This document shows, one piece after another, positions 1,058 to 14,600 of a stretch of 18,038 bases of DNA (position 1 is its first letter; each line of letters begins with the position of its first letter). The translations under genes and the position numbers were made by a program. Under the pieces are notes generated by a model. It did not search any database and was not told the DNA's origin. It saw only the letters and a program-made list of their open reading frames with translations. This DNA comes from Prevotellaceae bacterium UBA7028 (GTDB taxonomy: Bacteria > Bacteroidota > Bacteroidia > Bacteroidales > Bacteroidaceae), in contig DLBF01000141.1 of NCBI GenBank assembly GCA_002494215.1, forward strand, positions 7,548 to 25,585, read 5' to 3'.

Positions 1058-1098
1058 AACATTAAAATGAAGAATGAAGAATCAAACCCCTTTCCCCG

Positions 1099-1114
1099 CT
1101 TCCCCGAGGGGAAG
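1099..1114. repeat. GC-rich palindromic repeat, copy A (degenerate)
   Basis: A 7-bp perfect stem (1099-1105 with 1108-1114) is flanked by more C/G runs (CCCC at 1094-1097). It belongs loosely to the same C-run/G-run palindrome type as copies B to E and sits between the nuclease lipoprotein gene and the DUF3256-like gene. It has no T-run, so it is not a convincing terminator. Confidence 0.5.
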
Positions 1115-1137
1115 AGCCTACTATTAACAAAAAACAT

Positions 1138-1170
1138 ACCTCTCCCCCTCGAGGGAGTTGGAGAGGGGGT
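1138..1170. repeat. GC-rich palindromic repeat, copy B
   Basis: There is a perfect 10-bp palindrome at 1146-1155 (CCCTCGAGGG). Around it, 1139-1145 (CCTCTCC) pairs with 1160-1166 (GGAGAGG). The design is a C-rich palindrome followed by a G-rich tail, as in copies C and E. It ends about 20 bp before the start of the DUF3256-like gene, so it would lie in or just ahead of that gene's leader. Confidence 0.7.
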
Positions 1171-1189
1171 AAACAATAAGCAATAAACC

Positions 1190-1771: not shown

Positions 1772-1779
1772 AGGCCCCA

Positions 1780-1799
1780 TCCCTCCCGTCAGGGAGGGA
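1780..1799. repeat. GC-rich palindromic repeat, copy D (between convergent genes)
   Basis: Eight bases (1780-1787) pair perfectly with 1792-1799 around a 4-nt loop, and GGCCCCA (1773-1779) precedes the stem. The C-rich flank on the left makes this copy inverted relative to copies C and E. It fills the 34-bp gap between the stops of the DUF3256-like gene and the EamA gene. It could act as a two-way transcription barrier, but there is no U-run on either side. Confidence 0.7.
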
Positions 1800-3471: not shown

Positions 3472-5526
3472 TTATCTGACAAAAATCTTTTTTCCATTCC
3501 TGATATAGATGCCAGGCTTATGCGGAGCAGTTACCCTACGGCCAGAGAGGTCATATACCTCCCCTCCATTACGGGAGGGGTTGGGGGTGGGTCCGGCAAT
3601 GCCCATCTCCTCATCATAATTACTCATCTGTATATCATCTATGTTCAGACGTTTGGAGGCTACCCCACCGCCCTGGAACTTCAGACGTATATTACCCGGC
3701 TGACAGATAGCAAAACCATAGCGCTGCCATCCTTCAAACGACTGTAACGTAGTCACCTCTTTCCAAGTAAGACCGCCATCCAGAGAATAACTTACCGTTA
3801 ATGTGGCACCTGTATCATTATTATAGTTGCCTGCATAGAACCAAAGTGAGTCACACCCGCCCATCTTATCGGTTTTCATCTCTGCAAAGCCAGAGCTTTT
3901 CATTCTCAGCGATGTTGCAATGTTCGATTTGGCATCCTTCCCTAACATAGCATCGCTTAGCATCCACGTTGCTGCTGCACATTTCACCTCAGCGGCAGCA
4001 TAGCTACCCTTAGATCCTGTTTCAAAGTCCTCAAAGAATGGTTTCTGTTCATCCACACTACCCAAGAGTGCTATCACGCAGTCATCAACATCCTTTGTAC
4101 TCAGCGTCATAGTACCCGTGTAATTACCTGCTTCCTGAGCCGAGAGACGGACAAAGAACGTAGTACCGTTAGACGAGCACAACAAGGTTATCATCTTAGA
4201 CCAATCCTCGTCATCGGCATCCGGGTCATCAGAAACCTCGTAAGGATCTTGGACAACAGCTGTAAACTTATTATCCTTTGTTGCAAACATTGTAACCGTG
4301 ACAGCAGTGGCTGTACTGGCCACACCAGGAGTAGTTGTGAAAGTAATCCTGCCAGGCGATACACTAAACACAGGAGTCAATGCAGGGAAGTCAACCCTGA
4401 CCTCGTTACTCTGAGCAACTATCTGAGTGCCACTATAGACAAACACTTGATAATAATAGGTAGTCTCAACATTCACACCAGTTACCCTATAGGTGTTTTC
4501 AGTGGTGGTAACGGGGAAGCCCTGAAGTGAAGTCTTTTTGCCGTTGGCATCCTTTTCGTAAACATTCAATGTGTATTCACAGCCATCCTGATATTTACTC
4601 CAGCTGGCATCGAAACGTCGTGAATAAATAGAACTTACAATTTCGCTGGCCGGGTATGCGGTAAAGTCATACTCGTCATCAGGAATATCAGTAGAAGCTG
4701 ATGAGACATTAAATGCCACATTGATACTGTCACCCCAGATGTACTCAGCAAGATTAGGAAAGTCTATGAAGGGATTTCTATTGCCCTGAATACCATAAAC
4801 CGCCTCATTACGTTCCTTCTCTATCTCATCAACGGGATCCTGACGGTTCCACTTCAGGAACAGTTCATAAGCCCATGGCTGTAGTGTAGGCCATTCGTCA
4901 TTCTGCAGCATATTCAATCCTTCGCCTGTCCATGTAAGATTGCTATAGGTGGTTACCATATAGAAATAGTTACGGGCAAAGTCACCTTTCCATTCATCAG
5001 CAGGTTCCCATAGATTGGCATTTTTCCCACCGGCATCACCAGTTCCCACCTTAGTGCAACCATTATTGGTTTTGACTTTTGATACCACCCCCATAGCGTA
5101 ATTGCTCTTAGCGGTATTTATACTTACCTCACAAGGCATCAGGTTAAAAAGATCCTTATACGCCTGATTCTTATCCCCACCCCACCAGCTCTTAGGAAAC
5201 GAGTGTTCAATGTTCATACCATTAGCAGCATCGGTACTTTCTGGCGAGGAGCCTGCAGGAAAATAAAATACCTCGTAGCTATAGCGGTCGCGTACCTGAT
5301 TACCATTGTAACGGTCTGTAACGTAAAAACCAGACCAGGTTTTGCCTGGGCCTCCTCCATAATCAAGTACTGTAGCTGTCTTTATTACATTACGGAACGC
5401 ACTCTTCAATTCAGCTTTTTTCTTGCCGTTCACGCTCGCATAGTATTCGTATGGTACATCTGCCCATACGCTGCATAAGCAGCACATGAACGCAACAAGG
5501 GCAGCCAGATTTCTATAGGTCTTCAT
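3472..5526 (-). CDS. Secreted endonuclease I-family nuclease with T9SS C-terminal tail
   Basis: The 684-residue product starts with a Sec signal peptide (about residues 1-22). Residues 25-262 form an endonuclease I domain: N-I-E-H-S-F-P with H108 as the likely catalytic His, then L-F-N-L-M-P-C-E, and G-N-R-N-P-F near 247. Residues ~290-385 look like a fibronectin type III domain, ~390-495 like an Ig/BACON-type beta domain, and ~496-640 like a jelly-roll (F-F-E-D-F-E-T-G ... L-N-I-D-D-I). The end (V-Y-D-L-S-G-R-R-V ... G-K-K-I-F-V-R) is a type A T9SS sorting tail, so the nuclease should be exported and surface-anchored or released. Residues ~644-657 ([11 protein letters not shown]) are encoded by palindromic repeat copy E. 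It is probably the first gene of a transcript continuing into truA and the EamA gene. A promoter precedes it at 5549-5579. Confidence 0.92.
3561..3593. repeat. GC-rich palindromic repeat, copy E, inside a coding sequence
   Basis: Bases 3561-3567 (CCCCTCC) pair with 3574-3580 (GGAGGGG), followed by a G-rich tail (GGGGGTGGG, 3583-3591) and TC. This is the same layout and orientation as copy C. It is in frame within the endonuclease I gene and encodes a Pro/Gly-rich stretch directly before the C-terminal sorting tail. Confidence 0.8.
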
Positions 5527-5643: not shown

Positions 5644-5727
5644 TTATAATAATTATAGGTTGTTGAGTTCTTGGATTAAAAAAGAATTTCGTTTATGACT
5701 TTTCTCTTTTAATTTTTCTCTTTTATC

Positions 5728-8700
5728 TCAATAAAGCACCTTTTTACCACCAATAATGTTGATACCCTTCTGCAGGCGGTTTATGCGCTGACCTGCCAAG
5801 TTGTAGATAGCATCACCATTTTGAATTCCGAATGATGGATTTTGGATTTCATCAATACCATCTTCCTCATCCTTAGTTGGATTGTGGTAGCCAAGAATCT
5901 CATCATAGAGAACAATCTTGTGAGTTGGGTCAAGAACAGGATACAGATCCTTCTCGTCGCCAGTAAGATTCTGGTACCATGCAGGAATCTCCTGAACACC
6001 ATTCAACTTGAAGCAAATCTCGCCGCTTGCCAACTGGTCAGTTGTTACCAGGATGGAAGTATTGGTAGACTTAGCTACAGCACCAAAGGCAGCTGTACCA
6101 CTGTAATAGTTGTTGCTGTAGGAAGCACCATTGTTCTGAAGTGCACCAGCAATCTGACCTGCGCAGGTGTTCGTTACCTCACCAATAGATAGGCAGTTAT
6201 TAATGTTGTACTGAATATATGTTCCTATCCAGCCCACAATACCACCTGTAACACAACCGCTGACCGGTGATGAAGCAGCTTCGGTATTCACAATTGTGCC
6301 ATCGAACAGACAGCTGGTGATGTTAACATGTGCGCTTGCATTATTATAGACATGACCCACGATACCGCCATACATACCATCGTCACTTCCGCCATCATCC
6401 GTCACAGTGAACGTACCAGAGTATGAGCAACGATCAATATTCACCGTACTATTGTTAAAGACATGGCCTAAGATACCGCCAATGGTTTTTGTATTGACTG
6501 TGCTGTTGATATTCAGCGAACTGTGAACGTTACGAATATTTACACTGTTGTCACGGGCAAAGCCGACAACACCACCACACTGATTAAAGCTGTTGCTGTC
6601 GAGAGTGAAGTTACCGCTAATGCTGAAATTCTCGATAACAGCACCATTGGAAACAACACCGAACAGACCATAATAACTCTGGTTTGCAATAACGTTGAAG
6701 TTCTTGATGGTATGGCCCTGACCATCGAAGTGACCTCTATAGGCAGCTTGCTTGTTACCCCAGAAACCGATAGGTGACCACATCAAATCTATGTACTCTG
6801 GATTTCCATCACTTGCCAATTCTGTAAAGTCAATATCGCTTGTCAAAACAGCACTGGCTTTTGAGTCTCCATCGTTCACAATCTTAGCAAAGAGTTTCAA
6901 CTGCTTAGCAGTAGATATCTGATAAATACCATCTACCTGAGGCATCATCTTATCCAAGATATTCAGTTCATCTGCAAGGACAAGAGCCTGTTCAGCAGAA
7001 ACACTACCATCGGCAAAATAGCCTATAGCGTTATAAGCCTTTCCACTCAATTCGTCGAACTCATCTTCGGAAATAATACCCAGATTAAGCCAGTCACTAA
7101 TAACGAGATCTGTTTTCTGGGCAGTCATAGCCATTGCTATATAAGCCTTACGGCAAGTATAAACCTCATTAAAGAGTGCAGAGAAGGTATTAATGAGTGC
7201 CATCTTCTGTTCACCGGTAGCAGCTCCATCAACGCTTGCAATAGCCTCAGCAAGGCGGCCCTTCAACTCTGTAGAGATATTGGGCTTCATGGCAACATCA
7301 TCGTATCCGTCACTATTCTCGAAATCAACGATAACCTGAGCACGAGCGGCAAAGTCCTCCAAGACATCGGCTAACTTCTCATTTGCTTCTTCAGCAGTAC
7401 CGAGATAATACACACGCATATTGCCGAAAGGCATCCAGTCGCCAGCGTTACCTGTACCAAGATTACGCATACCGATAGTCAGCGTTCCGTCTGTAACCTC
7501 TGTGGCTGTGAGACTCTGGTAACGACCTGCTTCGAAAGCATAAGAGCAACCATCGAAAGAAGAAGGAACATAACCGATGGGCTCCATATTCTCTATGTAT
7601 GAAGCATCCTCACTGAGCAAACAGTTTACCTTATCTTCTGCCGCATTAACATCGATCATATCCTCACCAGGTGACATGAAGTAGTTATAGGTATCGTTCA
7701 GGTATAACTGTCCAGCATAGAACTGAGAGTAAATATCCTGACCACTAAGGAACATGCCGTTCAAAGCCATCATATAGACACCATTGGACAAGCCCGTCAA
7801 AGTCTGCTTAACATCAAAGGAACCGTTCTTACCACCGGCGATATTCATAATCTCCTGCACGCCACCGGTTGCAATAATTGCGCCATCACCTGTTTCCTTG
7901 GTCCAACCATCAAATTTATCCTCGCCTTCTGTGAAAGTGGGATTGGTAATCAGACGGGTAATCTCGGTTCCAGGTGTTAATCCACCAGCAATCGCATTCT
8001 GCAGCATCTGATTTACCAAAGCTGTTTCAGCTATTATCTCTTCATCATTCAGATAGGAGTTATCCAAGATATATGGAGCACTACCATTGGGATAATCGCT
8101 ACAAGGTTCTACACTATCCTGAAGATAAGTCAAAAGGAGGTCTGTATATTCTCCCTTCAGATCATTATCTTTAATATATTCGGCAGCAGCATCACAAGCC
8201 TGAACGTAAGCAGCATAGTTGGCTGCTGAGGTCATAACAGCCTCCTTAACCTTCTGTCCTGCAAGGTAAGCATTGAAGAAATCTTTATAATTATCAATTG
8301 CTTCCCAAGACCCGATAACCTCAGAATAATCCTGAACCAAAGATGCGCGAGCTACAAATTTTTCATCCTCGATGATGGCTGTTTCATAAGCTATAACATC
8401 ATCGCGGAAGGAAGCAAACGATTCCGGTTCATCTTCGGATGCGTTAGCATAGCCATCAATTACAGCATAGACAAAAGCACCTGTGCCTGTGGGCTTTGGA
8501 TATTCATCTTCATCAATAACCTGACGCCATACGGCATCAATGAAACTCTCACCGTTCAGTTTCCAGGCAATCTCACCGCTTGTCAATTGGGAATCTTCAA
8601 CCTCAACTGGTATATCACCATTTGCCTTGCCGCCACTTGACGCGCCATTGACAAATTCGCCAACATAGTAATCGTTGACAAAAGTAGAATTGTTGCCATT

Positions 8701-11492: not shown

Positions 11493-11595
11493 AGAGAAAC
11501 TGTATCAAAATAAAGATATCAAGTAGAAGGCTATAGTTCGTAACGTACGAACTGTAATAACCTGCTATGTATCTTTATTCTGATACAGTTCCTCT
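11493..11595. repeat. 103-bp long hairpin (MITE-like element or terminator)
   Basis: Bases 11498-11518 pair with 11570-11590 over 21 positions with one mismatch, and after one more mismatch 4 further pairs extend the arms (11493-11496 with 11592-11595). Inside, 11523-11530 pairs with 11561-11568 (one mismatch, one G-U), and a central stem (11532-11542 with 11546-11556, one wobble) closes on a 3-nt loop. Almost the whole segment therefore folds back on itself. It begins 32 bp after the stop of the 1959-codon gene, and on that strand is followed by CTTCTTTTT, so it could end that transcript. Its size and long terminal inverted repeats also fit a MITE. No clear target duplication is seen. Outside it and the promoter, the 11323-11627 gap holds only A-rich DNA. 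Confidence 0.8.
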
Positions 11596-11627
11596 CTAAT
11601 AATTATCTATACGCTATAAAGTCTATC

Positions 11628-14600
11628 TTAATAAAGGATCTTCTTGCCTCCAATAATGTTGATACCCTTCTGCAAGCGGCTTATGCGCTGACCTGCCAAG
11701 TTGTAGATAGCATCACCATTTTGAATTCCGAATGATGAATTTTGGATTTCATCAATACTATCTTCCTCATCCTTAGTTGGATTGTGGTAGCCATTATAAG
11801 CATCGTAAATAACAATCAAGTGTGTATTGTCCAAAACAGGATAAGCATCCGTGCCCAATGTCTGGAACCAAACAGAATTCATTTCCTGATTGTCACCATT
11901 CAAGTTGTAGCAAACCTCACCACTTGCCAACTGAGCATCGGTAACAGAAATTGGTGTAGAACCAGCAGCCTTGCCAGCACTTGTGGTACCCTTATCAAAC
12001 TCGCCCAGATAATAGTTGTTATCGAAAGTTGAGTTGTTACCTGCAAGTCTGCCTATAATCTGGCCGTAGTTTCCATCGCTTGTTGTAATCTTACCGACAG
12101 ACAAGCAGTTCTTGACAGTGGCCTTACCTGCGTTGTTGTAACCTATGATACCACCACACTGACCATCAGCTGTTGTGCCGTTCTGAATCTCGCCTTCGAA
12201 AAGACAGTTGGTGATATTAAGAACTGTCTTGACATCACTGTTGACATATGCGACAATACCACCATAGTTACCAGTTCTCTCTCCGCAATTGATGGTTCCG
12301 GAGTATGTACAATTCTCAATTGTTGTTGTACCGTTACTTATGGTTCCGATGATACCACCAGGTCTGTTTCCACCAGCCATACTTGTGATATTCAAATAGC
12401 TGTGGATGTTGCGTACAACAGGAGCATCATCACGTGAATAGCCTATTACGCCACCAGTCTTGTGGTTGAGGATAACATTTCCGTAGATGGTGAAGTTCTC
12501 GACAATAGCACCAACAGAAAGTACACCAAAGATTCCAAAGTAGTTGCGGTTTGAAGTAGCATTGAACCCAGTAATCGTATGGCCCATACCATCGAAATGG
12601 CCCTTATAGCCAACACCCTCTGAAGCCCAAGTTCCTGCTGCTGTCCAAGGATTAGCCTCAGTAATAGTCTCGGAAAGGTCGATATCCTTCACCAACTTGG
12701 CGTTCAGAGTGTACTCCCCAGCATTTACCCTTTCGGCAAATGATCTCAGTTCTTCCGCAGTCTTGATACCAAAGTATCCGTCGGGAGTCTGATGACAAAC
12801 AGTACAAGCACCGTCCACGAAATCGTGATTGTCGCGCCTATAACCATTATTGTCGTTAGCATATCCAAGCTCGCCCTTAGCACGACCATCACAAGTAAAC
12901 TCACCAACAGGATAGACGATAGCATGTGTAGCATCCAGAACTGGATAAGCATCCTGTCCCAATGTCTGATAGAAATAAATGTCATCAACATCGTTCAGGG
13001 TGTAGCAAACCTCACCGCTTGCCAACTTGTCAGCACTTACCTCGAAGGTGTTAGCAGTGATTGTAGGCATATCCACACCTTCGTTGGTGCCAAAGCCACG
13101 AGAAGCTGTGCCCTCCAACCAGAAGTTGTTAACATAAAGAGAAGGAGCGTTTGCACGGAAAGTTCCGGAAATAGCCGATGCGTTAACCAATGAAATCTTA
13201 CCAACCGACAAGTTGTTGAGCAACTCTATGGCTGTAGTGTTGGCATAACCAACCAGACCACCAACGTACGAAGCCTCGTTTTCTTCATTGCCTATAAGAA
13301 CACCATCGAACAGACAATCCTTCATTGTCATAGCACCAGCGTATCCTACAACACCGCCAAAACTGTCGCCATTGGTACCAATGTTCAATGTACCACTATA
13401 GCGACAACCAATAACCTTTGCAGAGTTGGTGGCTGCACCAACAATACCACCGATATGCTTGCTAACAGAACCTGTTTCAATGTTTACAGAGCTATGGACA
13501 TTCTCTAACACACCACCTTTCAGTTGACCTACGACACCTACAAAATCCACATCGGCAGTAGTAAGTGTACCTTCGATGCTAAAGTCCTTAATAGTGCCGC
13601 TTGCGCATGCAAACAGACCATTGTAACTATCAAGAGCATTTGTGATGGTGAAGTTAGTTATCTTGTGACCCTGACCATCAAAAGTTCCTGTGTAAGGAGA
13701 AGCAGAATCTAACGAGCCGTATTTTCCATGTGGACCAATTGCCCTCCACTCCAGACCAGTCAGGTCAATATCGTTAATAAGTTTGGCATTTGCATCCAGT
13801 TCACCAACAGCTACCTTGACAGCAAAGACTGCCAAATGAAGGGGAGTTCCAAGCAGATAAGTTCCATCCTCGTCTGTTGGAGGAACCAGGTTACCATACT
13901 CGCGCATAGCTTTAACGGCATTCTGAGCTTCCAAGGTACTGTATGTACCTTCCATGAATGCCATCTGAGCTGCATCTGCCAAATCATACATATCGTTTTG
14001 AGCATCTCCAGTGATAGCCTTGCAATTAAGCAATTCATCTGACATGACTATCATCTCGTCGGCAATCCTTACCATCTCGATGTATGCCTTGCGACAATCG
14101 TAGACCTCCTTCATCAAAGCAGAGAAGCGGTCTATCAAAGCTATCTTCTCATCGCCCGTAGTTGCCTTATCTATATCATCAGAGCAATTCTGCAATGCAT
14201 CCTTCAGGTCATTGGAGATGTTGGGATACTGAGCAAAATCTACATCATCGCTGTGTACAAAGTCAATAATGATCTGGGCTCTCTTACGATAACTCTCAAG
14301 TACAACGTCAAGACCCTCGCAAGGGGTATCGCCCTTACCTAAGTAAACAAGACACAAACCACCCATCAGTACCTGATCTGAACCAAGGTCTGTACCAGGA
14401 TTGGCAACACCTACTGTCAACTGACCATCAGTAACACGTACGGCTGTGTAGTTCTGGTATCTTCCGGATTCCATTGCATAAGTGAAGCCTTCAGCGGTAG
14501 CGGGAACATAACCTAGCACTTCTTCGTAAAGTTTATACTCCTTATCATCGGTAGCGGCCTTCTCTTCGGCATAATCCTCACCAGGAACCTGGATATAGTT

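Follow-up and report, generated by a model that had tools for sequence, protein, structure and literature searches.

The Rickettsia palindromic elements (RPEs) are dispersed palindromes, ~150 bp long in the first report, which occur in frame in unrelated genes, according to two articles (PMC10969869, PMC3733652). REPs, with their GTAG and CGTC superfamilies, are characterised in the second article as short palindromes that stand singly or in dimeric form, in many cases close to the 3' ends of genes, and yield stop codons; the same article places many of the intragenic REPs in genes of DNA synthesis and repair, uvrA among them (PMC3733652). BrickBuilt, a MITE of Porphyromonas gingivalis, is presented as strictly intergenic (PMC10969869), and the tyrosine transposases of subclass 2.6 are described as belonging mostly to Bacteroidetes and as having at their flanks atypical structures of which the genome contains further copies (PMC6006769).

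In the present study we have analysed a palindromic repeat, copy E, within an 18,038-nt stretch of a Prevotellaceae genome (the window). The analysis confirmed that copy E is a dispersed palindrome which is translated in frame as a protein linker.

Copy E and the other palindromes of the window

The hairpin arms of copy E occupy 3561-3567 and 3574-3580, and direct reading of the + strand gives CCCCTCC-ATTACG-GGAGGGG over 3561-3580, followed by TTGGGGGTGGG up to 3591. Translation of the 684-aa ORF demonstrates that 3559-3591 codes in frame for an 11-residue peptide within the linker of an endonuclease I-family protein, directly before the C-terminal tail and after the last beta domain (Table 1). 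The first-pass annotation had located a palindrome at 3561..3593 inside the nuclease gene and in frame, which was borne out by reading and by translation of the minus-strand ORF 3472-5526, and had assigned copy E the same layout as copy C, which also proved correct, the copies lying ~855 bp apart. Its placement of the repeat between the last beta domain and a T9SS tail stood as regards the position; the T9SS name is given by resemblance, as no tail family matched the nuclease at E<=0.001 in Pfam and NCBIfam. The label of T9SS type A derives from the motif YDLSGRR...GIYIRNGKK, taken to be that of such tails, and from its occurrence in relatives.

Table 1. Features of the window, and genes of the relative G022 that contain internal copies of the repeat.
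Feature	Position	Strand	Basis
Endonuclease I-family gene, 684 aa, contains copy E	3472..5526	-	Pfam PF04231 (E=4.2e-44, residues 39-257); homologues
C-terminal sorting-type tail, 27 residues	3475..3555	-	common to relatives
Copy E, 34-nt palindromic repeat core ACCCACCCCCAACCCCTCCCGTAATGGAGGGGAG	3559..3592	-	direct reading, translation, exact matches in relatives
Copy C, hairpin and G-rich tail as in copy E, intergenic, abuts truA stop codon	2706..2735	+	direct reading
Palindrome CCCTCCC-GTCA-GGGAGGG region, just 3' of DUF3256 gene (ends 1771)	1775..1798	+	inverted repeat I5, Pfam
Intergenic inverted pair, two C/G-rich palindromes	1083..1171	.	resembles paired elements of relatives
Internal G022 copies: glycogen synthase, glutamate synthase (GltB), S13 peptidase, two propeller-type regulators			Pfam
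Internal G022 copies: topoisomerase (copy inside domain), Mfd, DnaG			Pfam
Internal G022 copies: UvrA (inside UvrA interaction domain), GcvT (inside), CbiJ-CbiD (inside CbiD)			Pfam
Remaining internal G022 copies: three in tail-bearing proteins (L239, L243, L253), one in L223			L223 counted without Pfam match

The window contains 3 hairpins that combine C-rich arms with a G-rich tail, whereas none of 200 dinucleotide-preserving shuffles contains any. Folded by itself, copy E has no unusual stability for its composition (z = -0.68, with 52/200 shuffles equally good), so that the case for copy E rests on repetition and not on folding energy. Taken by itself this fold would suit the view that a Pro/Gly-rich linker resembles a palindrome by chance, or that copy E is an assembly artefact; the empty shuffles speak against this, as do the exact 34-nt matches in relatives beside an empty reversed control, and the homologue clusters, P0001 holding 39 member sequences on 12 contigs and the copy E peptide being present in P0001-P0003 (P0002 86% and P0003 85% identical). 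We consider this view hardly credible, and a chance palindrome in particular is rejected by the exact core matches together with the shuffle result.

The palindromes at 2706-2735 and 1775-1798 immediately follow the stop codons of truA and DUF3256, respectively, the same placement that is reported for REPs. A search of the inverted pair at 1083-1171 for an Rfam RNA gave mir-188 as the sole match, at 25.7 bits, far below the gathering score (72), and this was read as chance. Elsewhere in the window, the 3' ends of two large tail-bearing proteins (5724-5950 and 11624-11850) are 87% identical, and the linkers of the two large tail-bearing proteins, EIQNPSFGIQNGD and EIQNSSFGIQNGD, have a repeat-derived look by eye. 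Between the two large genes, 11493-11595 forms a long imperfect inverted repeat with 50-nt arms that are 76% complementary.

Dispersed copies in related genomes

Among 399 genomes searched, the nearest relatives by TruA, the neighbour of the nuclease, are G001 (89%) and G214 (87%), and copy counts come from the genomes of relatives, by a half-element search over 61 whole genomes around G001. The 19-nt half-element (<=1 mismatch) is present in 19/61 genomes with up to 54 copies (G022 54, G010 40, G025 35, G026 34, G036 25, G034 9 and G001 4), and its backwards control gave 0 in 61/61. Within 60 regions around copies in G022, G025 and G010 (L208-L267), which were picked for holding copies and for which G025 and G010 were sampled in part, the 34-nt core 3559-3592 was found 4 times exactly and 12 times with 1 mismatch, and the reversed core not at all within 8 mismatches. 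The G022 consensus starts AAAGACCCACCCCCAACCCCTCCC, followed in most cases by GTNANGGGAGGGGAG or GTAATGGAGGGGAG. A disagreement between the consensus from relatives and copy E had been named beforehand as what would tell against the first-pass claim; the two match.

The same regions contain 27 inverted pairings (two with one common end) of 95-264 bp, 13 of which measure 147-162 bp. They mostly have AGACCC...GGGTCT ends, and the ends of the paired element can be written as AGACCCACCCC...GGGTCT. Unpaired ends, at 56, are more numerous than pairs, and copy E is a single, unpaired end of such an element. The TTCAATG heptamer is also dispersed in G022, with 199 matches (overlapping ones in tandem arrays counted separately) and 0 in the control. 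The YKSYESY-type linker of G214 was examined as a second dispersed family and is not put forward as one, its DNA matching 1 time in G214, 1 in G001 and 4 in G025, with 2 matches of the backwards control in G002. To the eye, IQNSEF, EELRVKSEES and similar linkers also have the appearance of repeat-derived sequence.

The mobility that the first-pass annotation ascribed to these palindromes is something we infer only: the 10-nt flanks of the ends in L208-L267, inspected by eye, show no evident target-site duplication, and no transposase is consistently associated with the copies. PF01797 (Y1/RAYT) has a full-length match in G034 and a short partial one in G010, 8/25 genomes matching in all, and 0 matches in the copy-rich G022, G025, G026 and G036; assemblies may be incomplete. 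As these four copy-rich genomes are without a match, but G034 (9 copies) has a full-length one and G010 (40 copies) a short one, a simple RAYT-driven REP appears not to be supported.

The 54 G022 copies were classed by rule, a copy being internal when it lies inside an ORF of at least 250 aa. By this rule 15/54 are internal, 5/54 are at the C-terminus of an ORF on the same strand, 25/54 have no such ORF and 9/54 fall in the first 60 codons; the last, possibly upstream of the true starts, were left out of the internal count. Eleven of the 15 internal copies are in ORFs with Pfam domains, and uvrA, mfd, dnaG and the topoisomerase gene make up 4/15, as a count only. In the partly sampled G025 and G010, copies are located in DnaX, a DUF4011 helicase, an outer-membrane-type protein, an EamA transporter and a kinase-type ATPase. 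The C-terminal-end copies of G022 read HPQPLP plus stop in 4/5 cases. ORFs that take both their last residues HPQPLP and the stop codon from the palindrome are L213, L218, L222 and L229 in G022 and L267 in G010. The likeness to Rickettsia palindromic elements, which had been suggested for copy E, is upheld and extended by G022, where copies are in frame in many different genes and in three further tail linkers (L239, L243, L253).

Two of these proteins were compared across genomes. GcvT was matched in 23/31 genomes, G022 included, with a weak second match (L301) removed; the stretch holding the G022 copy has 25-33 residues in 19/23 homologues and is shortest in 6, and palindromes are seen by eye in this loop in 3/23, two of these being other doublets. 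The UvrA alignment comprises 29 rows, two of them more distant; inspected by eye, it has three loops with palindromic inserts in at least one of G022, G026, G033, G010 and G023 (L302-L306), some of the inserts being doublets of ~30-45 residues.

Linker replacement and tail linkers as sites

A parser that takes linkers of 8-40 residues handled 104/120 homologues, 16 being left out, and yielded 72 distinct linkers with a median of 22 residues (range 19-30). Many different linker sequences occur among the nuclease homologues; P0004, 82% identical, has another linker, and the copy E peptide is resembled, by eye, by those of P0012 (PTPGPSLNGGE) and P0074 (LTPTLSKGEG). Homologues without any such palindrome but with the same residues would have contradicted the first-pass claim; at the linker site of homologues without the copy E peptide the residues differ, so the claim is not refuted. 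The precise indel of 11-14 residues that it had led us to expect was not seen, the window linker, with 22 residues, being at the homologue median.

At the truA-linked locus, comparison of the window with G214 gives 125/167 identical bases in the left flank, 11/34 in the linker, where the alignment has a 12-nt gap, and 142/179 in the right flank, which consists of the tail and the truA start. Since the flanks are conserved in G214 and the linker is not, the repeat replaced linker sequence between kept flanks without clear lengthening. G001 (69/181 on the left, 111/176 on the right) is less informative because the nuclease there has diverged. For the nuclease gene, the median length and the G214 substitution led us to reject a clean insertion that leaves an indel of 11-14 residues, and no empty site was found for this gene, its linker being substituted and not lengthened.

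The conservation of the tail side bears on a further explanation, in which the repeat and the sorting tail moved jointly by recombination between dispersed repeats and the linker is a junction scar. Near-identical tails after differing linkers in P0007, P0009 and P0033 would fit such an exchange, and so would L239 and L253, which are 71% identical over 35 residues covering the linker and tail start only. At the nuclease locus, however, it is disfavoured because the sequence after the linker is conserved between the window and G214 although the linkers differ, and we judge it unlikely. A second variable site lies within the tail, between GRR and GIYI/GVYI, and carries repeat-like inserts in L206, P0012 and P0038, for example SLSPSPSPVREGRA in L206.

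In three tail linkers of G022 the repeat is read as PTPDPSR[ND]GGE, with frame and strand as in the window, and the window protein matches these G022 tail proteins mainly from the linker onward. The tail model found 62 tails in G022, and a single one of them (L184, which is the L243 site) carries a strict copy, out of 54, in its linker, which is not significant (about P=0.09) because ~0.1 would be expected. Tails in L239 and L253 were identified by eye, that of L239 being atypical, and counting three G022 tail-linker copies with an assumed 100 tails gives P=6e-4. L239 and L243 are 42% identical over 119 residues, some of which precede the linker, and they may not be independent since the similarity includes sequence ahead of it. 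In a strict scan of the best 30 G022 tails (28 parsed), the C-rich hairpin occurs in 2 linkers and the TTCAATG heptamer, translated in L178, L205 and L206, in 3; one or the other is found in 5/28 linkers against 0/252 segments that lie upstream in these loci (Fisher P=7e-6, the heptamer class having been chosen post hoc), and hairpins alone in 2/28 against 0/252 (P=0.01). The strict scan gave hairpin linkers in 0/27 cases in G010 and in 0/29 in a 30-genome set, which is not unbiased because its query contained the linker peptide; LTPTLSQGEG (L121) and SPQPSPEGKG (L144) of that set have by eye the look of diverged palindromes. Only G022, a single genome, suggests that the copies prefer tail linkers.

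Such figures could also reflect selection of the repeat inside genes, either because its composition makes a useful spacer or because it forms an mRNA hairpin that slows translation ahead of the tail. The frame and strand shared by the three G022 linkers and the window would agree with this, together with the G022 enrichment and the predicted disorder of the spacer: in the AlphaFold2 model, a weak one (mean 62.7, pTM 0.32), residues 640-653 have pLDDT <50 between ordered strands. Against it, homologues have unrelated linkers of similar length, none of the 27 G010 linkers contains the hairpin, and tolerance explains the enrichment equally well; we regard selection of this kind as very unlikely. 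Selection against insertions elsewhere in genes would account for the enrichment without targeting.

We propose that copy E is, quite probably, one end of a non-autonomous RPE/REP-like Bacteroidales element which is kept neutrally in a permissive, length-limited linker. In this proposal copy E would have entered the linker by insertion via some enzyme, or by recombination, and its open frame would be read as a disordered Pro/Gly/Asn-rich spacer. Older linker residues would then have been lost because length, and not sequence, is constrained, and copy E would stay since the site tolerates it and not for a peptide task of its own. More tentatively, and in our judgement less likely than not, unrelated dispersed repeats (the AGACCC palindrome and the TTCAATG heptamer) may keep overwriting the same short segments, such as the tail linker and certain UvrA and GcvT loops, supplying new protein sequence with the linker length unchanged.

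Comparison with known systems

No earlier report of the Bacteroidales element was recognised in searches of the open-licence PMC literature, as judged mostly from its listings. If our proposal is true, the element joins the few bacterial cases of a dispersed palindrome regularly translated inside genes, and a loop of GcvT, three of UvrA and many tail linkers would serve as natural replicates for studying how non-coding repeats become protein segments. It would also raise the question of how the element is moved and why palindromes inside genes recur in uvrA, mfd, dnaG and one for a topoisomerase. On the more tentative reading, the repair and replication genes known for intragenic REPs of other phyla would recur here, with an element for which no consistent transposase was found.

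With MITEs the Bacteroidales element has in common that its paired ends form terminal inverted repeats (27 pairings beside 56 unpaired ends), and with BrickBuilt also an origin in Bacteroidota. Set against MITEs, it shows no target-site duplication evident by eye; set against BrickBuilt by description, it differs in being intragenic too. The likeness to RPEs, drawn from their description, consists in a palindrome dispersed between genes and in frame inside unrelated ones, 15/54 copies being internal in G022; the differences are the other phylum, the single end that forms the window copy, and the tail linkers of secreted proteins as an added site. With REPs the Bacteroidales element shares short palindromes that stand alone or paired, some next to gene 3' ends where they supply stop codons and some within genes such as uvrA. 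It differs from them in that no consistent Y1/RAYT gene goes with it and that, by eye, its G022 consensus, which begins AAAGACCCACCCCC and has its end near GGGAGGGGAG, bears no GTAG or CGTC tag at either end. Lacking this end tag, the Bacteroidales element nonetheless works like the RPEs and REPs.
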